From positions 1-64,000 of the forward strand of contig JAIOOU010000007.1 of NCBI GenBank assembly GCA_021414245.1: 64,000 nt of DNA, read 5' to 3'. The position numbers and the translations under genes were made by a program. Positions 22,094 to 32,738 of the stretch are shown here, in pieces. The stretch's first letter is position 1, and each line of letters starts with the position of its first letter. The notes beneath the pieces are model-generated. The model saw nothing but the letters and a program-made list of their open reading frames with translations. It was not told where the DNA came from and did not search any database. Origin of the DNA: Chloroflexota bacterium. Lineage in GTDB: Bacteria > Chloroflexota > Anaerolineae > Anaerolineales > Villigracilaceae.

Positions 22094-22630
22094 ATGATAT
22101 CCAAAATCAAACCGACAGGCTGGTTCGCGGCGCAGGCCACTGAAGAGGAATTCGAGCAGTTCTACCATCTGCAGCTTCCGAAGGTCTATAACTTCTTCCG
22201 TTACCGCTTCGGCGACGGTCCGCTGGCCGAAGACCTGACCTCCGAGACCTTTGAGAAGGCCTGGCGGCATCGCGGACGGTACAAACGCGACCTGGGCGGC
22301 CTGTCCACGTGGATCTTTACCATCGCCCGCAACCTGGCCGTGGACCAGTACCGCAAAAAGGAGCAGGAAACCCCGCTGAACGAGGCGGCGGACCTGCCGT
22401 CCGATGAAATGCCCATGGACGAGCTGGCGCAGCAGCGTACGGACCATGCGCGCCTCTTGATCCTGCTGGCGCGCCTGACAGACCGTGAGCGGGAACTGGT
22501 GGCTCTGAAATATGGTGCAGGCCTGACCAACCGCGCGATTGCGGGCATTACCGGGCTAAGCGAATCCAATGTGGCTGTTATTTTGCACCGCGCCGTACAG
22601 TCTCTGCGTGGAGAATGGGAGAAACCATGA
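22094..22630 (+). CDS. ECF-type RNA polymerase sigma factor
   Basis: The protein has 178 residues. Region 2 is FEQFYHLQLPKVYNFFRYRF, then DLTSETFEKAWRH and GLSTWIFTIARNLAVDQYRK. Region 4 is LLARLTDRERELVALKYGAG, then NRAIAGITGLSESNVAVIL and HRAVQSLRGEW. Its stop overlaps the next ATG by 4 bases (ATGA), so the two proteins are translationally coupled. It is distinct from the first sigma gene at 15183 and probably has its own regulon. Confidence 0.93.
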   Translation: MISKIKPTGWFAAQATEEEFEQFYHLQLPKVYNFFRYRFGDGPLAEDLTSETFEKAWRHRGRYKRDLGGLSTWIFTIARNLAVDQYRKKEQETPLNEAADLPSDEMPMDELAQQRTDHARLLILLARLTDRERELVALKYGAGLTNRAIAGITGLSESNVAVILHRAVQSLRGEWEKP

Positions 22631-23376
22631 ACGACGACTTCCTTAACCGTTTTCAAAAATCACCCCGGCCGGATTTTGAATCCGCGCTGTATCAAAAAAT
22701 AAACAAGCCGCTTCGCAGTCCGGTCCCCGGCCGCATCCAGTTCACACTTGCAGCGGTGACCGCTTTGTTCGCGCTGACCGTGATTTTTGTGCCGCAGGCC
22801 CGGGCGGCGATTCAGTCTGTGATCCGCAAGATTGCGGGAATCACCTTCGACGAGCGCACCAGTCCCACGGTCACATGCGACCCGATGGATTGCGCGCCAC
22901 AGGAGGTGGCGGGCAGGATGTCTTTTGAAGAAGCGCAAAAGATTCTGCCTTTTGCTGTTCACCTGCCGGAATGGACCCCGCAAGGATACTGGCTCAATCC
23001 ACGCACGACCCTTGTCCACATCAACAATGGAGATGACTTGCTGCTCGAAGTGGAATGGTTGAAATCCGGGTTGGCCGGGGAAGATCAGGAAGATTATGTC
23101 CAGCAAATGGTTTTGCATGTCTGGCAGGATCGGGGTCAGGGCGAAACCTGGACTGTCGCCCCGGAGAGCATTAGTGAGGTCAGTGTGAATGGTGAACCCG
23201 CAGCCCTGGTCCACGGCGGCTGGATGCTCTTCAGCAATGACTGGAACAGTCCGGGCATGACGAACCTGGCCTGGAAAAAGAACGGGGTCTGGTATCAGCT
23301 CTCGGCTGTCTTTCATGACCCGTCAACTGCTATCCCGGACGAAGAAATGATCCGGATCGCGGAATCGATCCCGTAA
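22627..23376 (+). CDS. Membrane-anchored DUF4367-like protein, probable anti-sigma partner
   Basis: The protein has 249 residues: a short cytoplasmic N-terminus (about 35 residues, no zinc motif), one membrane helix (FTLAAVTALFALTVIFVPQA), then an extracytoplasmic domain with the DUF4367 pattern (LPFAVHLPEWTPQGYWL, LEVEWLKSG, VNGEPAALVHGGWML). Coupling to the sigma gene and this topology suggest it holds the sigma factor at the membrane, though its N-terminus has no recognisable anti-sigma domain. The start at 22627 was chosen because GGGAGA lies upstream. Confidence 0.82.
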   Translation: MNDDFLNRFQKSPRPDFESALYQKINKPLRSPVPGRIQFTLAAVTALFALTVIFVPQARAAIQSVIRKIAGITFDERTSPTVTCDPMDCAPQEVAGRMSFEEAQKILPFAVHLPEWTPQGYWLNPRTTLVHINNGDDLLLEVEWLKSGLAGEDQEDYVQQMVLHVWQDRGQGETWTVAPESISEVSVNGEPAALVHGGWMLFSNDWNSPGMTNLAWKKNGVWYQLSAVFHDPSTAIPDEEMIRIAESIP

Positions 23377-23394: not shown

Positions 23395-23428
23395 GGAAGC
23401 CCTGTCCACTGGACAGGGCTTCCTGTTT
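23395..23428 (+). terminator. Terminator of the second sigma operon
   Basis: A perfect 13-bp stem GGAAGCCCTGTCC/GGACAGGGCTTCC with a 3-base loop is followed by TGTTTTT. Confidence 0.8.
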
Positions 23429-23565: not shown

Positions 23566-23967
23566 ATGGGTAACAGGACGTTAATGTATGTCGGAGCGGG
23601 GATCGTGCTTTTGATCGGCGTTTGTCTCTTTGGGTACGGGATTCTCAGTGTGATCGGTTCTACTTCCTCGCCGGAACGGGCTTCCTGGTTTGGGTATGGA
23701 ATTGTCTTTGCCATTGTCGGGGCGGTCTTTCTGGGGGGCGGGATCCTGCTGATTGTGCGGAACCAGGCCAAAGGTCAGGAGGGAGGCGGGGATAACATCA
23801 CCTACCAGATCGACCTGCCGTCCCAAACCAGGGTCGAGCAGATGAAGTGTCGCAGCTGCGGCGGGGCCTTGAAGGCCGACAACGTCAAAATGATCGCAGG
23901 CGCGCCCACCGTGGAATGTCCGTTCTGCGGGACCACCTATCAGTTAACCGAAGAACCGAAATGGTGA
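23566..23967 (+). CDS. Membrane protein with C-terminal zinc ribbon
   Basis: The protein has 133 residues: two membrane helices (about residues 5-27 and 40-62) and a cytoplasmic C-terminal zinc ribbon with CRSCGG and CPFCGT pairs. Such proteins often scaffold other membrane factors. The start at 23566 is preferred over 23548 because GAGGAG lies upstream. It is 33 bases before the next gene and looks like the first gene of the locus that includes the radical SAM proteins. Confidence 0.75.
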   Translation: MGNRTLMYVGAGIVLLIGVCLFGYGILSVIGSTSSPERASWFGYGIVFAIVGAVFLGGGILLIVRNQAKGQEGGGDNITYQIDLPSQTRVEQMKCRSCGGALKADNVKMIAGAPTVECPFCGTTYQLTEEPKW

Positions 23968-24000
23968 TCCGTTTCCGTTTGTGATCGGGCAGGAGTTCTC

Positions 24001-25668
24001 ATGACGAAAAGAATCCTCATCCTTTTGTTTGTTCTTATTCTCGCTGCCGGCCTGGCCGTGCACGTCTCCGCGCAGGACCTTCCATATTATTTCCAGGTCA
24101 ACCAGGAAGCGGTGCAGGTCTATTGGAATTCGGACGGTTCGCAAAGCCTGGATTACACCTGGACCTTCACCAACCAGCCCGGTTCGCATCCGATCGATTT
24201 TGTGGATGTGGGCATGCCCAACTACAATTTCGACATGAACACGATCAAGGCCGATGTGGACGGTGCGCCTGTTTCGGTCTCAAAAAGCGATTACCAGGGC
24301 GACGGCTCCGGTTTTGCGATCGTGATGGGGGACAGGACCATCCCGGCCGGCGGCGTCGGGATCGTACATGTGTACGTGGGCAGGATCACAGGGGTGTTGT
24401 ATCCCGACGACAAGGATGAGGCCTACGCCAGCGCCGTCTTTGTGCCGACTTATTTTGGCTCACAGTATGTGACCGGCAATACCGATTTGAGCGTGACCTT
24501 CCACCTGCCGCCCAACATGAACGAGCAGGAACCACGCTGGCATGCCGCGCCCTCCGGATTTCCTAGCGAGCCGCAGCGGGCCTATGATTCAAACAACCGG
24601 GTCACCTATACCTGGTATTTGCCAACCGCCAGCGCCTCCAGCAAATATGTATTCGGTTCATCCTTCCCGCGCAGTTATGTCCCTGCCGACAGTATTTACG
24701 TCGCGCCGGTCGAACCCCTGGTCAGTTCCGATACCATATTCACATTGTTCTGCTGCGGTTTTATTGTTTTTATCTTCATTGGAATCCCCGTCATCTCGGC
24801 CATCAGCGGTCAGCGGCGCAAGATGCAATACATGCCGCCCAAAGTGGCCATCGAAGGACATGGCATCAAACGCGGATTGACCGCCGTGGAGGCTGCCATT
24901 CTCATGGAACAGCCTCTCGACAAGGTCATGACCATGATCCTCTTCGGCGTGATCAAGAAGAACGCCGCCGAGGTCATCAGCCGCGATCCGCTTGAGATCA
25001 AATCCGCCACCCCAGTGCCGGATGGTTTGAACGAATACGAATTGAATTTTCTACGGGCGTTCAAGGAAGAGGATAAAAAGACCCGTCAGGGTCAGCTGCA
25101 GCAAACGATGGTCAAGCTGGTGAAATTGGTCTCCGAGAAAATAAAAGGCTTCAGCCGCAGGGAAACCATCGACTATTACCGCTCGATCATGGAAAAAGCC
25201 TGGCAGCAGATCGAAGCCGCCGATACGCCCGAAGTGAAAAGTCAGAAATTTGACGAAGCCCTCGAATGGACCATGCTCGACAAAAATTACGATGACCGCA
25301 CCCGCAGGGTTTTCAGTGGACCGGTCTATGTGCCCATGTGGTGGGGACGCTACAACCCGGCCTATGCCCCGTCTTCCGCGCAGCCTGTCAGCGGAGCCCC
25401 GAGGTCCGGGTCGAGCCAGCCCTCGAGCCGTTCCGCCCTGCCCGGCGCGGATTTTGCCGCGCAAGTGGTGACCGGTGTGCAGACCTTTTCGCAAAAGGTG
25501 GTCGGTAACGTCAACACCTTTACCGAGCGCGTCACCGGTGCGACCAATCCTGTCCCCAAACCCACTTCGAGCGGGCGCAGCATCGGCGGAGGCGGCGGTG
25601 GACGTTCGTGTGCCTGTGCATGCGCCTGTGCCGGCTGCGCCTGTGCCTGTGCGGGCGGCGGGCGCTAG
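24001..25668 (+). CDS. Large membrane protein (DUF2207-like) with a Cys-Ala repeat tail
   Basis: The protein has 555 residues. A cleavable signal peptide (residues 1-24) precedes a beta-rich extracytoplasmic domain to about residue 240, a membrane helix (TIFTLFCCGFIVFIFIGIPVI), a cytoplasmic domain (KRGLTAVEAAILMEQPLDKV) and a low-complexity Pro/Ser/Gly region. This order resembles DUF2207 proteins. The last 19 residues hold seven Cys alternating with Ala (537, 539, 541, 543, 546, 548, 550), after a run of Gly and before GGGR. The downstream gene is a PqqD-radical SAM-SPASM protein, so the tail may be its modification target. The function is unknown. Confidence 0.8.
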   Translation: MTKRILILLFVLILAAGLAVHVSAQDLPYYFQVNQEAVQVYWNSDGSQSLDYTWTFTNQPGSHPIDFVDVGMPNYNFDMNTIKADVDGAPVSVSKSDYQGDGSGFAIVMGDRTIPAGGVGIVHVYVGRITGVLYPDDKDEAYASAVFVPTYFGSQYVTGNTDLSVTFHLPPNMNEQEPRWHAAPSGFPSEPQRAYDSNNRVTYTWYLPTASASSKYVFGSSFPRSYVPADSIYVAPVEPLVSSDTIFTLFCCGFIVFIFIGIPVISAISGQRRKMQYMPPKVAIEGHGIKRGLTAVEAAILMEQPLDKVMTMILFGVIKKNAAEVISRDPLEIKSATPVPDGLNEYELNFLRAFKEEDKKTRQGQLQQTMVKLVKLVSEKIKGFSRRETIDYYRSIMEKAWQQIEAADTPEVKSQKFDEALEWTMLDKNYDDRTRRVFSGPVYVPMWWGRYNPAYAPSSAQPVSGAPRSGSSQPSSRSALPGADFAAQVVTGVQTFSQKVVGNVNTFTERVTGATNPVPKPTSSGRSIGGGGGGRSCACACACAGCACACAGGGR

Positions 25669-25688
25669 TGTAACTCCAGAGGTAAAGA

Positions 25689-27065
25689 ATGGCTTTGTTG
25701 ACCCGCTTTAAAAATATATTCAAACCATCGTCTGCGGTTCACGATCCGGCGGCGGGCCTGTATCACTACGTCCGCGAGGATGAGCGGGAGAAGGCCCGCA
25801 TCCACCTGCGCCTGGATGGCGACGGGACGGGCACGCTGATCGTCAATGCCAGCAGTGTCATGCATTTGAATCCCAGCGCGGCCTTGATGGCCTGGTTGAC
25901 CCTCGAAGGCAGGACCCGTGAGGAAAGCCTGCAGGTCCTTTCCAAAAAATACAAAGCGCCCAAAAGACTTTTACAGGAGGACCTTTCCTCCTTCCTGTTT
26001 CAATTGGATGAACTTCTGCGGCCCGACGGTGCCTGCGCCATTCACGACCTTGACCTTGAAATGAAGATGCCCTTTAGTGCGCGTCCCTCCGCTCCCTATC
26101 GCATGGATCTGGCGGTCACGTATCGCTGCAACAACGATTGCGCACATTGCTACAACGCCCGCGAGAGGAATTTTCCGGAACTGACTACGCAGCAATGGTT
26201 CACGATCATCGACCGGTTATGGGAATTGGGCGTGCCGCACATCGTATTCACGGGCGGTGAGGCCACCTTGAGGAACGATCTGCCGGAGTTGATCCAGCAT
26301 GCGGAATCGAACGGCCAGATCACCGGTCTGAACACGAACGCGCGCCGTCTGATGGATATGCAGTACGTCCAGCAGCTCGTGGACGCGGGCCTCGATCATG
26401 TGCAGATCACGGTCGAATCCTGTGTGCCTGAGATCCATGACCAAATGATGAGGTCCAAAGGCGCCTTCCGGCAGACCATCGCGGGCCTGAACAATGTCTT
26501 GAACACAAAACTGTATGTGATGACCAATACCACCATGCTGCGCACGAATGTCGCCACGATTCCCGCCACCCTCGATTTTCTGGCTGACACCGGCGTCCCC
26601 ACCATTGGATTGAACGCCCTGATCCTCTCGGGTCACGGCCTGACCGTGGGCACGGGTCTGCATGAAAATGAATTACAACCGCTCCTGGATGTAGCCGTCC
26701 GCAAGACCGCTGAACGCGGACAAAAACTGATCTGGTATACACCCACGCAGTACTGTCAATTTGACCCGACTGCGAGCAATCTGGGGGTCAAAGGCTGTAC
26801 CGCGGCCTTGTACAGCATGTGCATTGAATCCAACGGGGATGTGCTGCCCTGCCAGTCGTATTATCACCCGCTGGGCAATATCCTCGCCGATCCCTGGGAT
26901 TCGATCTGGAACCATGAACTGTCCACGCAGCTGCGCGAGAGGCGCAGCTTGCCCGGCAAATGTGAAGGCTGCTCGCTCGCTCCGGAATGCGGAGGCGGCT
27001 GTCCGCTTCAATTCGATGCCGAAACCTCACAAGCGGTTTCCAATCAACAGCCGGTGGTTTTATGA
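25689..27065 (+). CDS. Radical SAM/SPASM protein with N-terminal PqqD-like domain
   Basis: The protein has 458 residues. Residues about 20-110 form a PqqD-like domain (LHLNPSAALMAWLTLEGRTREE pattern), the fold that recognises peptide leaders. The radical SAM core has CNNDCAHC (Cys147, 151, 154) for the catalytic cluster and FTGGE at 187-191 for AdoMet. The SPASM region has Cys370, 378, 388, 425, 428, 434 and 438, enough for auxiliary clusters. This architecture is typical of enzymes that modify ribosomal peptides. It starts 20 bases after the Cys-tailed protein and its stop overlaps the PAS gene by 4 bases. Confidence 0.9.
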   Translation: MALLTRFKNIFKPSSAVHDPAAGLYHYVREDEREKARIHLRLDGDGTGTLIVNASSVMHLNPSAALMAWLTLEGRTREESLQVLSKKYKAPKRLLQEDLSSFLFQLDELLRPDGACAIHDLDLEMKMPFSARPSAPYRMDLAVTYRCNNDCAHCYNARERNFPELTTQQWFTIIDRLWELGVPHIVFTGGEATLRNDLPELIQHAESNGQITGLNTNARRLMDMQYVQQLVDAGLDHVQITVESCVPEIHDQMMRSKGAFRQTIAGLNNVLNTKLYVMTNTTMLRTNVATIPATLDFLADTGVPTIGLNALILSGHGLTVGTGLHENELQPLLDVAVRKTAERGQKLIWYTPTQYCQFDPTASNLGVKGCTAALYSMCIESNGDVLPCQSYYHPLGNILADPWDSIWNHELSTQLRERRSLPGKCEGCSLAPECGGGCPLQFDAETSQAVSNQQPVVL

Positions 27066-27403
27066 ACGCACATGCCTGGATCCGGGAATTTCCGGCTGCC
27101 ATCACCGTTTGTGACGGGCAGGGGATCATTCTCGAAATGAACGAGAAGGCCGCCAAAACCTTTGAAAAGGATGGCGGCTATAAACTGATCGGCTCCAACA
27201 TGCTCGATTGCCACCCCGATCCGGCCCGCGAAAAGACGGAAAGGCTGCTGGCTGCGCGTGCAAGGAACGTGTACACCATCGAAAAGAATGGCATCAGGAA
27301 ACTCATCTATCAATCGCCCTGGTATGAGAACGGACAGTATGCCGGCTTTGTCGAACTCTCCCTGGAGATCCCCTTCGAAATGCCGCATTTCGTCCGCTCG
27401 TAA
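27062..27403 (+). CDS. Small stand-alone PAS-domain protein
   Basis: The protein has 113 residues and is a single PAS fold (FPAAITVCDGQGIILEMNEKA, then GSNMLDCHPDP and a final beta-sheet YAGFVELSLEI). It has no output domain. The start overlaps the radical SAM stop (ATGA), so the two are made together, and it lies 12 bases before the second radical-SAM-like gene. It may sense a ligand or a redox state and act on the enzymes beside it; what it binds is not visible. Confidence 0.85.
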   Translation: MNAHAWIREFPAAITVCDGQGIILEMNEKAAKTFEKDGGYKLIGSNMLDCHPDPAREKTERLLAARARNVYTIEKNGIRKLIYQSPWYENGQYAGFVELSLEIPFEMPHFVRS

Positions 27404-27415
27404 TGGAGAAATCTC

Positions 27416-28558
27416 ATGAAAATCCTTGACCGTCTTGCCGAACGTTTTTCAAAAGTCGAGCCCCTGCCTGCGGGCACCCATCATCTGCAATCCATGCAGG
27501 ATGAGAGACCGTACCGGGTCCACCTGCGCCTGCAAAAGGATGGTTCGGGAGTTTTGATCTTGAACGCGTCCACGGTCCTGCAGTTGAATCCCAGTGCGGC
27601 GGAATGCGCATTCCATTTCATCAAAGGCACGGGACCCGAGGAAGCTGCAAGCCAGATCTCAAAACGCTACCGGGTCAACCGCAGGAAGGCACTCGAGGAT
27701 TATCAAAATTTTGTGGATCAGATCCAAACCCTGATCTCCACTCCGGACCTGGACCCTGTCACAGTGCTGGATTTTGAGCAGGCTTCCCTGCATTCAACGG
27801 ATATGAATGCGCCGCTGCGCCTCGATTGTGCGCTTACCTATCGTCTGCCTTCGAACAGCCGGGCCGAATACGCGCCCGTCAAACGCGTGGACCGTGAACT
27901 GACAACTGATGAATGGAAGATGATCCTGGGGAAGGCCTGGGCAGCCGGCATCCCGCACATTACCTTTACCGGCGGCGAAGCCACACTGCGGCCTGACCTG
28001 CCGGACCTGATCGCTCACGCCGAAAGCCTGGGCCAGGTCTGCGGGCTGTTGACCGATGGCATCAAACTGGCCGATAAAAAATATCTCGACCTGCTCCTGC
28101 AGACCGGGCTGGATCACATTCTCTTCATCCTTCAGCCTGAAAGCGGGGAATCGTGGAAGGCCCTTGAAACTATCCTGCCCGGGGATATCTTCGTTACGGT
28201 TCATCTGACTTTGAATGACGCGAATGGAAAAGTTGCTGCGCAATATCTGGAAAAATTGGCGGATATGAAGGTGCAAAGTTTTTCGCTGACGGTCACAAAC
28301 CCTTCCTTGTACAACACCTATAATACCTTGCTCAACAGGGCTGCCGAACTCGGCCTTACGCTTAAGGTGGACCTGCCGGTTCCTTATTCGGCCAATCATC
28401 CGGTCTCTTTTGAAAATCAGGAAGACAATCTTCCGGAAGGAGCAGGCAGGGCCTGGTTGTATGTGGAACCCGATGGCGACGTTCTGCCGACCCAGGGTCG
28501 GGCCGATCAGGTGTTGGGGAATCTCCTGAGAGATGACTGGCAGGCGCTTCACCTTTAG
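27416..28558 (+). CDS. PqqD-like protein with degenerate radical SAM domain (no cluster cysteines)
   Basis: The protein has 380 residues and is a paralogue of the enzyme at 25689: the PqqD-like part (LQLNPSAAECAF) and the TFTGGEATLRPDLPDLIAHAES block are conserved. At the cluster site, CNNDCAHC is replaced by LPSNSRAE (residues 144-151), so all three ligands are gone. The protein also stops at the point where the SPASM cysteines begin (GDVLPTQGRADQVLGNLL). It should not make a radical and is more likely a partner or substrate-binding subunit. The reading frame is undamaged, so it seems maintained. A GGAGA site precedes the ATG. Confidence 0.85.
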   Translation: MKILDRLAERFSKVEPLPAGTHHLQSMQDERPYRVHLRLQKDGSGVLILNASTVLQLNPSAAECAFHFIKGTGPEEAASQISKRYRVNRRKALEDYQNFVDQIQTLISTPDLDPVTVLDFEQASLHSTDMNAPLRLDCALTYRLPSNSRAEYAPVKRVDRELTTDEWKMILGKAWAAGIPHITFTGGEATLRPDLPDLIAHAESLGQVCGLLTDGIKLADKKYLDLLLQTGLDHILFILQPESGESWKALETILPGDIFVTVHLTLNDANGKVAAQYLEKLADMKVQSFSLTVTNPSLYNTYNTLLNRAAELGLTLKVDLPVPYSANHPVSFENQEDNLPEGAGRAWLYVEPDGDVLPTQGRADQVLGNLLRDDWQALHL

Positions 28559-28562
28559 AAGC

Positions 28563-29291
28563 ATGGATTGGCATACCCGTTATACCCAACAGGCAGGCTG
28601 GACCCGCGATCTTCGCGTCTATATTTTCAGCAAAATAAAACTGAGCAGGATGACGCCAGTACTCGAGGTGGGCTGCGGAACTGGCGCTATTCTTTCCGGG
28701 TTGCCGCCGCGTACCCCCATTCATGGTCTTGACCTTGATCCTGCCGCGCTCTCCGAATGTAAAGTCCACGCCCCGGCCGCCTCGCTGACTCAAGGCAATG
28801 CACTCCGTCTGCCGTATTCCAGCGCATCGTTTGAGGTTGTATATTGTCACTTCCTGTTGTTGTGGGTGGGTGACCCTTTGCAGGCCTTGCTGGAAATGAA
28901 ACGCGTTGCCAGACCGGGGGGACAGGTGATCGCTTTTGCCGAACCGGATTATTCCCGGCGCGTCGACAAACCAGACGAATTTATCCAACTTGGAAAATGG
29001 CAGACCGAGTCCCTCATCAAACAGGGGGCCGACCCATCTTTGGGGGCAAACCTGGCTGAATTATTTTTTCAAGCGGGAATCAAGATCGTCGAAACAGGAA
29101 CCATTCAAAATTTAAGCGGAGACACGTCGCCTGCGGGCTGGGAAATGGAATGGGCCGTGGCTGAAGCCGACCTGGCCGGGTCTGTCCCGGATGCAGACAT
29201 CCAAAGAATGAAATTGCTCGACCAAATTGCGCGGGCACAGGGGAAGAGAGTGCTGAGCGTGCCCACCCATTTTGCGTGGGGAAGTGTCTGA
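28563..29291 (+). CDS. Class I SAM-dependent methyltransferase
   Basis: The protein has 242 residues with motif I VLEVGCGTGAI, motif II IHGLDLDPAAL and motif IV VVYCHFLLLWV, a Methyltransf_11 type pattern. It begins only 4 bases after the stop of the degenerate radical SAM gene, with no ribosome site of its own, so translation is probably coupled. This ties it to the maturation locus, where it could methylate the same target. The substrate is not predictable from sequence. Confidence 0.88.
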   Translation: MDWHTRYTQQAGWTRDLRVYIFSKIKLSRMTPVLEVGCGTGAILSGLPPRTPIHGLDLDPAALSECKVHAPAASLTQGNALRLPYSSASFEVVYCHFLLLWVGDPLQALLEMKRVARPGGQVIAFAEPDYSRRVDKPDEFIQLGKWQTESLIKQGADPSLGANLAELFFQAGIKIVETGTIQNLSGDTSPAGWEMEWAVAEADLAGSVPDADIQRMKLLDQIARAQGKRVLSVPTHFAWGSV

Positions 29292-29332: not shown

Positions 29333-30343
29333 ATGGAAATTTGTTATCTACTCGCCTTCCCGGATACCGATGATGGAAGCGCTCCCCCGCCTGAACAATT
29401 CAAAGGATTGATCAAAGACGCCCCTTACTTTCAGCCCACCGATATCGACCTGGTGACCCTGGGGGAGGAGACTGTGGTGATCGAAGGCTATGCCGTTTCC
29501 ACGCTGCGCCAGAGATTCGACAACCGTGTGCAAATGGTGGAATGTCATTTTGATCTGCGCGACCCGTTCGCCAGTTCCGTGCTGAAGGACCGTCTTAAGA
29601 TCCAAAATGCACTGCAAAGCCGTTTCATTCCCGAAACCATCCGTCAGAGCGGCTTGTATGAGGAATACAGCATTCTGCTTGTGCAAAATGCCAAACCTTC
29701 ACCGGATCAATGGCTGGGGAAGAATGCGGTCGCCTTGGCCACCTTTATCCGCTCGCAGCGCGATACCCTGGACAAGGCGGAGATCGAGGAGATCCTGCGC
29801 TCGCGTACGCATTATTCAGCCCGCGAGGTCACCGTGGTGGACTGGGAGGGCGCGATCATTATTGCGCCCAATGACGATTATCAATCCGACATCGCCCTGC
29901 TCAAGATCGGCAACTATCAGCTGATTCGCTACCGCATGCTGGACAAATCCATCGAGTTAATGCTCGACCGCATCAATGAGACCTTCTTTCAGAACAAAAA
30001 GCGGCCCCGCCCGACGCGCGGCATGATCCGCCAGATCGCGGAACACCGGCTGGAAATGATGCTCAGCTTCGAGCGCGCCGAACAGAACATGCTCCTGATC
30101 GGCGACTGGTACACCTCGAATTTATACGAGGCCATTCACGACCAGTTCTATCTCAAGGATTGGAAGGAAAATGTCAAGAACAAACTGGACAACCTTGAAA
30201 ACATCGTCGAGACCATCAAGGATAATTTCTCCGTTTCGTTCGAGGGGTTGATGGACCGCCTGCAGATGATCGGCTGGGTGGTTCTGCTGATCGGCTACAT
30301 TTACCTGTATCTGCTGGATGCGGGCTGGATCCATTTTCCATAA
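29333..30343 (+). CDS. DUF155/RMD1-like protein with C-terminal membrane anchor
   Basis: The protein has 336 residues. The body is soluble with a helical C-terminal half (IAEHRLEMMLSFERAEQNM, then GDWYTSNLYEAIHDQFYLKDWKE and KLDNLENIVETIKDN), ending in one membrane helix (MIGWVVLLIGYIYLYLLDAGW). The layout resembles the RMD1/DUF155 family (mitochondrial RMND1 relatives), but the match is by pattern only. It is 41 bases after the methyltransferase with its own GAGAGGA site and may be outside that operon. Confidence 0.6.
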   Translation: MEICYLLAFPDTDDGSAPPPEQFKGLIKDAPYFQPTDIDLVTLGEETVVIEGYAVSTLRQRFDNRVQMVECHFDLRDPFASSVLKDRLKIQNALQSRFIPETIRQSGLYEEYSILLVQNAKPSPDQWLGKNAVALATFIRSQRDTLDKAEIEEILRSRTHYSAREVTVVDWEGAIIIAPNDDYQSDIALLKIGNYQLIRYRMLDKSIELMLDRINETFFQNKKRPRPTRGMIRQIAEHRLEMMLSFERAEQNMLLIGDWYTSNLYEAIHDQFYLKDWKENVKNKLDNLENIVETIKDNFSVSFEGLMDRLQMIGWVVLLIGYIYLYLLDAGWIHFP

Positions 30344-30640: not shown

Positions 30641-31666
30641 ATGAAGCGATTATTTGTGTTTGCCCTGAGCATGCTTTTCGCATCCATCGCCTGTCAAACT
30701 CTGCAACCAACAGCACCGGCCGTGACCGCGACACCCGCGGTTGAGACCCTTGCGATCTCCACTGCACGTCCGACCCCTGTCCCGATTATCTGCACGGATG
30801 ATTCGTGCCTGGATGCCTGCCTGACGCGCATCAATTCAACCCTGGGGACTCGTCAATTCGAATCCCTGGGCGGAGAATATGCCGGGACCAGCGCAAATCT
30901 CAATCTGGTAATTTATACGGTGGAAAATGGGAATCTGGGCGAACCCGATATTCTATACGCGCCGGCCGAGTTCAAGCCTTTTCAGGAGGATTTTCAAGCC
31001 CAGGAAGTGGTCTGGAAATATGCCTCCTCGCTTTTGCCTGCGGATCAACTGAATCTCATCTCTGAATATGATATTTTTACGGATGGCACCGACAATGTCC
31101 TGGCCTGGGTGACGGTCCGGGACGATCTGGATCGCTCGCGCTGGCAGTTGGGCGTGGATATCGCCGACGCGCAAAACCCGGTCGACCTTACCTATACACT
31201 GATCCATGAATTTGGGCATTTGATCTCCCTGAATTCAGAACAGATCACCCAGACGGAGTTTTACTTCGGTTGGAATCAGAATCCCGCCACTTGTGCACAG
31301 CTCACCACCCCGGAAGGATGCAGCACACCCGGTTCGTATATAAATCTTTTTTATCAGGATTTCTGGACGGGAATCTTTGACGAATGGCGTGAAATGGTCG
31401 AGAAACCCCAAATCAATTCCGATGAGGAGTTCCGGGTGCTCGTGCACGACTTTTACCTGAAACACGAGGATCAATTCGTCCGCGAATATGCCGCCACCAA
31501 TATTCGTGAGGACCTGGCTGAATCCTTTATGCATTTTGTGCTCGAACCCCGCCCGGCTGGCACAGGCATCGCGGATCAAAAGATCCTGTTCTTATACAAT
31601 TTTCCCGAACTGGTGTCCATGCGCCGCCAGATGATCCAGAATGTCTGTTCGTATACGCAGGAGTGA
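30641..31666 (+). CDS. Secreted lipoprotein zincin-type metallopeptidase (tandem copy 1)
   Basis: The protein has 341 residues. The lipoprotein signal ends in SIAC. After a Thr/Pro linker comes a domain with HEFGH (TLIHEFGHLISL, about residue 188), the HExxH zinc motif, and later EDLAESF (about residue 287), whose Glu is a good third ligand as in gluzincin-type enzymes. It is a close paralogue of the next gene, with shared blocks YSIFTDG/YDIFTDG, FGHL and AATNxxEDxAES. Substrates are unknown; it should act outside the membrane. Confidence 0.8.
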   Translation: MKRLFVFALSMLFASIACQTLQPTAPAVTATPAVETLAISTARPTPVPIICTDDSCLDACLTRINSTLGTRQFESLGGEYAGTSANLNLVIYTVENGNLGEPDILYAPAEFKPFQEDFQAQEVVWKYASSLLPADQLNLISEYDIFTDGTDNVLAWVTVRDDLDRSRWQLGVDIADAQNPVDLTYTLIHEFGHLISLNSEQITQTEFYFGWNQNPATCAQLTTPEGCSTPGSYINLFYQDFWTGIFDEWREMVEKPQINSDEEFRVLVHDFYLKHEDQFVREYAATNIREDLAESFMHFVLEPRPAGTGIADQKILFLYNFPELVSMRRQMIQNVCSYTQE

Positions 31667-31721
31667 CCCGTGCCGCTTTCCTATGGTATCCTTGCCCAAT
31701 TCTTTTTTATCGGATGGGACC

Positions 31722-32738
31722 ATGTTGCGTTTGAAAACTCTTCTTGCCTCGTTTGCCCTGCTTGTCTCGACCCTGGCTTGCACCACTTTGCTGGGGACCC
31801 CCCAACCTGAATCTAACCCATCGATCGACAACCCGGGGTCTGAGATTACAGTCGAACCCACGATCGAAACCCTGCTTTCCTGCCCGGTCATTACGGACCG
31901 GATCATTTCGGTGGCAACCTCTGGTGGCGGGCAGGTCGATGAGGATTTACTGGATCAGGAGATCTATCTGGTCACGTATACGGTTTCAGGAAACGAAGTC
32001 GGGGACCCTGTTTACGAATCGATTTCCTCTGATCTGCAGGATGAACAGCAGGATACTTCCATGCATAAGCAGGTTTGGGATTATTTCACCGCCTTAATTC
32101 CGGAGGAGCGCAGGGGCATGGTTGCCGAGTATTCTATTTTCACGGATGGCCGCGGTGGCAGCCTGGCGGCGGTCGTTCAGACTTTTTCCGACCCCGACCT
32201 TTGGGCGTTGGAAGTGGACTTCGCGGATACCACGGATCCTTTTGATCTGACCTTTACCCTGGTCCACGAATTCGGGCATTTGCTGACGCTCGGGCCGGAT
32301 CAGGTGCCTCCCAGTCTGGCTGTTTTTAACAATCCCGATGATGACAATATTTACCTTGAAGAGGTATCCGCCTGTCCGCAATACTTTCCCGGCGAAGGCT
32401 GTGCCAATCCGGATTCCTATATCAATGCGTTTTACGGTCAATTCTGGGTGGATATCCACGATGAGTGGAATGCGATCAATCTTGAAGAGGATGAGGATGT
32501 TTATTATGAACGGCTTGACAGGTTCTATGAAAAATACAAGGATCAATTTGTGACCGATTATGCGGCCACCAACCCCGAGGAGGATATGGCTGAATCCTGG
32601 GCGTTCTTTGTTCTCGGTCCGCAGCCGTTTGACGATACGGTTGCCGGGCAAAAGGTGCTGTTCTTCCATCAATATCCGGAACTGGTGGAGTTGCGTGCAC
32701 GAATTCTGGATAATCTGTGCCGGATCTTCCCGGAATAA
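31722..32738 (+). CDS. Secreted lipoprotein zincin-type metallopeptidase (tandem copy 2)
   Basis: The protein has 338 residues. The lipoprotein signal ends in STLAC. The zinc motif is TLVHEFGHLLTL and the probable third ligand lies in EEDMAESW. It follows copy 1 by 55 bases and has clearly arisen by duplication, though the two are now well diverged. The in-frame region upstream of 31722 lacks a signal, so the start was set there. A phosphatase gene begins 9 bases after its stop. Confidence 0.8.
   Translation: MLRLKTLLASFALLVSTLACTTLLGTPQPESNPSIDNPGSEITVEPTIETLLSCPVITDRIISVATSGGGQVDEDLLDQEIYLVTYTVSGNEVGDPVYESISSDLQDEQQDTSMHKQVWDYFTALIPEERRGMVAEYSIFTDGRGGSLAAVVQTFSDPDLWALEVDFADTTDPFDLTFTLVHEFGHLLTLGPDQVPPSLAVFNNPDDDNIYLEEVSACPQYFPGEGCANPDSYINAFYGQFWVDIHDEWNAINLEEDEDVYYERLDRFYEKYKDQFVTDYAATNPEEDMAESWAFFVLGPQPFDDTVAGQKVLFFHQYPELVELRARILDNLCRIFPE

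Follow-up and report, generated by a model that had tools for sequence, protein, structure and literature searches.

A predicted radical SAM maturase for the Cys-Ala tail of a membrane protein in Chloroflexota, other bacteria and Asgard archaea

A stretch of 64,000 nucleotides from Chloroflexota bacterium GCA_021414245.1 (contig JAIOOU010000007.1, positions 1 to 64,000; "the window") carries seven plus-strand genes, lettered A to G in order, two of which are the subject of this report: B (24001-25668, +), encoding a 555-residue membrane protein that ends in a Cys-Ala tail (CACACACAGCACACAGGGR, residues 537-555; 25609-25665, +), and C (25689-27065, +), encoding a PqqD-like domain, a radical S-adenosylmethionine (SAM) core with a CxxxCxxC motif and a SPASM domain. 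Judged from sequence comparison, C very probably modifies the tail of B, and we hold with good confidence that C is a maturase of the kind that acts on ribosomally synthesized and post-translationally modified peptides (RiPPs), with B as its predicted substrate and the tail as the predicted core of modification. Four observations lead to this reading: i) the two genes occur together; ii) the tail is constant to the letter; iii) the type of tail tracks the lineage of the enzyme; and iv) the fold, the cysteines and the recognition domain of C are those of peptide-modifying enzymes.

Co-occurrence and conservation of the tail and the enzyme

Whole-protein searches of 298 genomes of the class with B (E 1e-5) and searches of the same genomes with C (E 1e-30) gave two genome lists, which were compared by reading. 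B matched in 62 genomes and C in 78; all 62 lay within the 78, and 220 genomes had neither. None of the 62 B genomes was thus without a C match, and the original prediction passes the check set out with it, whether the tailed protein and the PqqD-radical SAM gene always co-occur. The window's genus held four genomes with both genes and two (G111 and G179) with neither. The tail was visible in 61 of the 62 B genomes, the copy in G095 being truncated where its contig stops. An active C lay on the same strand within 3.5 kb of B in 48 of 61 B genomes and in the window (49 of 62); C was on the same strand 3.8-4.5 kb from B in G219 and G187, and the other eleven were contig ends or unlinked copies. 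Sixteen genomes of the C list fell outside the B list: six of these (G036, G063, G126, G162, G245 and G251) have a B with a tail of CHSAC units adjoining C, and three (G024, G059 and G235) have B located elsewhere in the genome.

Beyond the class, a DNA scan by the tail core across a collection of 84,980 species matched at least 118 places; one isolate accounts for both L160 and L188, so that the places outnumber the genomes. They are not confined to Chloroflexota: the listed matches also include Asgard archaea (Hodarchaeota, Heimdallarchaeota, Lokiarchaeota and Sigynarchaeota), Aminicenantes, Armatimonadetes, Coatesbacteria, Zixibacteria, Fermentibacterota, Planctomycetes, Hydrogenedentes, Acidobacteria and some others, together with one member of the Clostridia, Hungatella hathewayi. 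At 113 of the 118 listed places the tail closes its reading frame with GGGR; at four no frame is listed, since the match reaches the boundary of its stretch, and in Hungatella extra residues follow GGGR. C with the CxxxCxxC motif was found in the same stretch at 85 of the listed places, while at 11 the stretch has nothing beyond a truncated C, a disrupted frame or a degenerate second radical SAM-like protein (C2, see below). Genome-wide search for the remaining 33 places recovered a full or nearly full C for 26 (8 of the 11 just named among them), pieces for 4 and none for 3. For 111 of the 118 listed places a clear C is thus present, either adjoining the tail or at another site of the genome. 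Side-by-side placement of tail and C was seen in Bellilinea caldifistulae GOMI-1, Ornatilinea apprima P3M-1 and Levilinea saccharolytica KIBI-1, and the Hungatella family has the tailed protein in 12 of 150 genomes, with C as the next gene upstream in all 12. On these counts, the recurrence of the tail and its neighbour in dozens of divergent genomes is more than chance. This co-occurrence (62 of 62 B genomes and 111 of 118 listed tail places) supports the claim of the original prediction that the tail of the membrane protein is the target of the PqqD-radical SAM enzyme.

The tail itself falls into three types, distributed among the B genomes (window excluded) as 27 type I (..GCACACAGGGR), 11 type II (..GCACACACAGGGR) and 22 type H, the last being a run of CHSAC units. 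The 38 type I and II tails from the whole-protein search have 38 distinct DNA sequences and only 5 protein sequences; codon positions 1 and 2 differ in 0.04 of comparisons and position 3 in 0.58. When 57 B proteins are aligned, conservation reaches 94% in the tail and ~50% in the ectodomain and in the cytosolic domain; 56 of the 57 were found via the tail core, whose conservation is thus by construction, while GGGR and the preceding Cys-Ala lie outside the search pattern. Alanine precedes nearly every cysteine in both the CAC and the CHSAC types, and every inter-Cys alanine of types I and II is fixed. Tails of the Hungatella family mix the styles (e.g., CVHSSC with CACACAC) ahead of GGGRAGC (SSGRAGC in three) and thereby link type H with types I and II.

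Tail type follows the lineage of C, as judged from a tree of 71 C rows (one a duplicate; type I rows drawn at random; long branches for Hungatella, L221 and L203), on which the three tail types require 5 changes against 24.7 with shuffled labels, and type H forms one clade. For comparison, the TIGR04222 model was run on 251 genomes of the phylum to find relatives of B; it gave 22 matches in 18 genomes, and a B-like protein was readable in 7 of the 22 loci. These seven DUF2207-like proteins, which do not stand beside the system, have no cysteine in the last 60 residues read and mostly glycine-rich ends, although one (L333) reaches the end of its stretch, so that its true C-terminus is uncertain, and another (L341) belongs to a genome, G280, that has the system elsewhere. 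The Ala-Cys tail therefore appears to mark the enzyme-linked branch; the flanks of the control loci span 1.5 kb, which makes for a weak test of whether C is missing there. The same holds for L328, a true TIGR04222 protein whose tail is Gly-Cys and whose 1.5-kb flanks hold no C-type enzyme. DUF2207-like paralogues were also observed a few kb from CHSAC-type loci (L288 7530-8501, minus strand, with a plain glycine end; L110 11351-13243, minus strand; and L113 584-2515, plus strand).

Enzyme C, protein B and the nature of the modification

C exceeds the Pfam cut-offs for all three of its domains (SPASM 40.6 bits, cut-off 21.5; PqqD 25.2, cut-off 23.4; radical SAM also above), which bears out its original description as a PqqD-radical SAM-SPASM enzyme. 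Among 36 aligned C proteins, chosen for carrying the CxxxCxxC motif, the motif cysteines C147, C151 and C154 are invariant in all 36; the SPASM cysteines C370, C388, C425, C428 and C434 are likewise invariant, and C438 nearly so. The model of C (predicted local distance difference test, pLDDT, 85) has a PqqD-like fold of strands and helices at residues 23-110, resembling a RiPP recognition element (RRE). Its best structural matches are SkfB (top), SuiB, CteB and PqqE, with the epimerase EpeE and sulfatase-maturing enzymes also among the matches; by sequence against solved structures, SkfB is again best and PqqE is also among the leaders.

The model of B (pLDDT 86.5) begins with a helix at residues 2-25 (signal or first membrane segment), followed by an extracytoplasmic beta domain (27-226), a membrane helix (~243-272), a helical cytosolic domain (295-437), two helices at 482-515 (25444-25545, +; block pLDDT 85-91) that precede the linker, and a disordered tail. 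From the charges flanking the second membrane helix, we infer that the tail lies on the cytosolic side, in the same compartment as C. No Pfam family, DUF2207 included, describes the window's B above cut-off: DUF2207 (PF09972) matched 1 of the 57 aligned B proteins weakly, and a CHSAC-type relative at 31.0 bits (cut-off 24.4), while TIGR04222 gave no match for the window's B and 38.3 bits (cut-off 43) for a CHSAC-type relative. The beta domain (24079-24678 of the window) superposes on a yeast oligosaccharyltransferase (OST) chain, 6ezn_A, with Z 17.0, a root-mean-square deviation of 2.7 over 184 residues and 12% identity, ahead of M1 aminopeptidase N-domains (Z ~12). A profile of the 57 B proteins searched against solved proteins returned no OST chain at E 1 and no convincing sequence relative, and the fold common to the B ectodomain and ribophorin I/OST1 shows no common function. 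OST1 has been described in eukaryotes, TACK and Asgard archaea (PMC11417166). As a side observation, a ribophorin I lumenal-domain fold with tailed versions in Asgard archaea may have some bearing on the origin of OST1.

On the proposed mechanism, the PqqD-like domain of C would bind the helical stretch of B ahead of the Gly/Ser linker (the helices at 482-515 being the candidate leader-like recognition site), a SAM-derived radical would abstract hydrogen from the alanine near each cysteine, and the cysteine sulphur would bond to that alanine carbon, so that thioether rings of the sactionine or lanthionine-like kind would form a ladder. Alanine next to cysteine is the constant element of all three tail types, and with the sactisynthase-like enzyme it suggests such a thioether from Cys to a nearby Ala, to which we give slightly less than an even chance. 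E, or separately the degenerate C2 of type II loci, may be a dead enzyme retained as a binding partner, and F may methylate the product. The modified tail would remain on B, facing the cytosol, and we consider it probable that it stays attached. A soft-metal or redox role is the leading guess for it.

Several points weigh against this account of C and the tail. Among the C-list genomes, the B copy of G024 ends before the tail, and no B was seen in seven (G005, G006, G128, G157, G192, G220 and G225), although G192 has E only, G220 only a weak match, and the rest have contig ends or are incomplete; B and C lie on separate contigs in G100, G173 and G048. Because the scan selected on the tail core, the core letters of its matches are constant by construction. 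Two of its 26 full or nearly full C matches have an internal stop; L212, L229, L152 and L236 have only pieces of C, mostly at contig ends; and L185, L192 and L206 have no C genome-wide (L192: contig stops just after B, and the genome has an E-F contig end; L206: just a dead C2, adjoining B where the contig stops; L185: a different gene upstream of B). Shared descent accounts for part of the tree result. The seventh SPASM cysteine is missing from the window's C; it is absent from 47 of the 53 C proteins whose locus has E and from 45 of the 94 whose locus does not, a rough pattern, uncontrolled for kinship, of which we made no use. The fold of C does not fix its chemistry. Several cysteines of the Hungatella-family tails adjoin Ser, Val or His rather than Ala, and these tails fit the thioether less well. 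Finally, an alternating CxC pattern would suit plain metal binding as well.

The rival that survives best leaves the pairing of enzyme and tail intact and changes only the reaction. C could act on the tail by epimerising alanines, by oxidising cysteines as in sulfatase maturation, or by forming carbon-carbon bonds; the presence of EpeE and of sulfatase-maturing enzymes among the fold matches, and PqqE as the best named-family score, speak for such chemistry, whereas the top folds (SkfB, SuiB and CteB) and the pairing of Ala with Cys suit a thioether. These observations do not firmly separate the chemistries, and the other reactions are possible, if rather doubtful.

Modification followed by release is unlikely. 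Pyrroloquinoline quinone (PQQ) and mycofactocin both originate from peptides and use PqqD-like and SPASM proteins, and by that parallel B might be a membrane-bound precursor whose modified tail is cleaved off as a small molecule. None of the neighbours A-G matches a peptidase family, however (the loci were not otherwise searched for peptidases), B is large and keeps its domains, and the Hungatella-family tail has further residues after it.

It is improbable that the tail goes unmodified and serves in metal binding or thiol redox, with C modifying another target such as A or making a small cofactor. CxCxC repeats could bind soft metals, and A is kept in most Anaerolineae loci with its terminal EEPKW or a near variant. 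Yet the inter-Cys alanines of types I and II are fixed despite free codons, which simple metal binding does not demand, C accompanies the tail nearly always, and the end letters of A differ in Asgard and CHSAC-type loci, nor was an A found beside C in the Hungatella family. Highly improbable is mere hitch-hiking of unrelated B and C in a conserved membrane operon: the genes do form a single short operon in most genomes, but B and C persist together when unlinked (L148/L255, L194/L256, G100, G173 and G048; in the two Asgard genomes, L148/L255 and L194/L256, C and F are on a contig other than B's) and do so in different phyla, whereas the presence of D, E, F and G varies, as does that of A in the Hungatella family. 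Modification of the tail of B by C is the reading retained here.

The gene cluster and its variable members

The six plus-strand genes of the original prediction, A to F, are all present, with intergenic distances of 33, 20, -4, 12 and 4 bases given an F start at the ATG at 28563, and the predicted seven cysteines are all found in the tail of B. The left edge of the unit is marked by a strong terminator-like hairpin (23395-23423, +; 13 pairs, 9 of them G-C, with a T-rich tail), which separates the cluster from an upstream sigma-factor/anti-sigma-like pair; the region has 19 terminator-like sites against 9.7 in shuffles, so that the weight rests solely on the strength of this hairpin. The right end probably lies past F. 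G (29333-30343, +), a 336-residue protein with no Pfam or NCBIfam family match, starts 41 bases past F, and it stands between C and E in six relatives (L036, L037 and L039-L042) and after F in L038; from its position in the six, the unit probably runs on to the end of G at 30343. The pair directly upstream (22094-23376), an ECF sigma factor and an anti-sigma-like membrane protein, was beside the system in none of the relatives compared and is therefore probably separate from the unit. Downstream, at 30641-32738, we observed two adjoining related proteins that look secreted and carry one HEFGH motif each; they may be metallopeptidases.

A (23566-23967, +) is a small protein with two hydrophobic stretches, lying in its N-terminal half, and a zinc-ribbon-like CxxC/CxxC end (both by eye), closing with EEPKW; all of its Pfam scores are below cut-off, with weak zinc-ribbon scores. 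Its homologue stands upstream of B in most type I loci and upstream of C in type II loci; it was not found beside C in Hungatella-family loci. The terminal EEPKW was also considered as the substrate and rejected, since two Asgard copies end in NPIW or NPVW and the A-like proteins of CHSAC-type loci have other ends. In four CHSAC-type loci (L106, L108, L115 and L116) two genes come after C, one for a protein of ~390-420 residues and one for an A-like protein whose zinc-ribbon end differs.

D (27062-27403, +), predicted to be a PAS protein, is PAS-like, but its scores fall just below the cut-offs (PAS_4 20.7 of 23.1 bits). E (27416-28558, +) is the predicted pseudo-radical SAM paralogue: it scores above the Pfam cut-offs for PqqD and radical SAM and has none of the cluster cysteines, and it is likely a partner of C, presumably non-catalytic. 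An orphan E gene, perhaps a relic, was seen at L119 (2598-3743, minus strand) in a genome without detected B or C proper. In type II loci, C2 has lost the whole CxxxCxxC segment, while the last four SPASM cysteines are kept in 7 of the 8 C2 proteins read; as far as these sequences go, a dead radical SAM partner recurs (E and C2), though not in every lineage. In four type II loci of one family (L064-L067) the tailed B gene is present as a tandem pair, which follows one active and one dead radical SAM gene. F (28563-29291, +) is a class I methyltransferase, as predicted, and a frequent neighbour in type I and type II loci.

The exact six-gene set did not hold as a conserved system. D and G each occur in few loci and are, among the loci compared, extras of those few; E is confined to Chloroflexota loci; and F is found neither with CHSAC-type tails nor in the Hungatella family. 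By this comparison the conserved core is B plus C, smaller than the six-gene set and far wider in range.

Relation to known systems

No description of this system, its tail strings included, was found in the open-licence literature. The nearest published concept found is the proposal that TIGR04222 membrane proteins with Cys-rich C-terminal segments are substrates of multinuclear non-haem iron-dependent oxidative enzymes (MNIOs; DUF692) (PMC12452194). In that paper, Table 3 gives 490 of 1372 genomes without MNIO, DUF2207 is not mentioned and "radical SAM" is mentioned twice. Both systems have a membrane protein with an extracytoplasmic domain, a low-complexity Cys-bearing C-terminus and an adjacent oxidative peptide-modifying enzyme. 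They differ in that the enzyme here is a radical SAM protein, the tail is a strict Ala-Cys string and is predicted to be cytosolic rather than periplasmic, and the association of enzyme and tail is near total rather than loose. An MNIO was also considered as a hidden partner and rejected for the window's genome, the one genome searched, which gave no PF05114 match (controls matched in 2 of 14).

C resembles the sactisynthases and ranthisynthases (SkfB and CteB) in combining a radical SAM-SPASM enzyme with an RRE, SkfB being the top match by both fold and sequence. Sactipeptides and ranthipeptides, however, derive from short leader-core precursors, whereas the candidate substrate here is a 555-residue membrane protein with its core at the extreme end and a thioether that is itself predicted. 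C likewise shares with PqqE/PqqD a PqqD-like domain and a SPASM radical SAM enzyme, and PqqE is its best named-family score, but that score is 125.1 bits against a TIGR02109 cut-off of 381.35 bits; no NCBIfam family comes near its cut-off, and none was adopted as a name for C. The Cys-Ala tail has, to our knowledge, no resemblance to PqqA. By its family name, the ACGX system (TIGR04340) also ties a SPASM enzyme to an Ala-Cys-bearing repeat, but a CHSAC-type C scores 100 bits of a 400-bit TIGR04340 cut-off and the tail has no ACGX repeat; in the portions of PMC8326336 seen, neither ACGX nor a membrane protein is mentioned. Repeated Xaa-Cys pairs adjoining a radical SAM enzyme are found in Cluster 59 as well, a three-gene cluster with a recombinase (PMC9062424), but there the repeat is Asp-Cys and sits on a small peptide, where here it is Ala-Cys on a large membrane protein.

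Thus the pairing of a radical SAM enzyme with an Ala-Cys-tailed membrane protein appears undescribed, and it stands a fair chance of representing a new class of protein modification. More specifically, and tentatively, it may be an oxygen-independent radical SAM counterpart of the MNIO-TIGR04222 system, in which the cytosolic C-terminus of a ribophorin-like protein would receive a permanent polycyclic Cys-Ala cap, in many lineages with a dead enzyme alongside the active one, in Bacteria and Asgard archaea.

Most of what is known of radical SAM peptide chemistry concerns small natural products. The present enzyme goes with the C-terminus of a large membrane protein that is conserved widely, in Asgard archaea as well as many bacterial phyla, and the product is therefore likely to be a working part of the cell rather than an antibiotic. 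The invariant, repetitive tail would also be a clean substrate for learning what C does.

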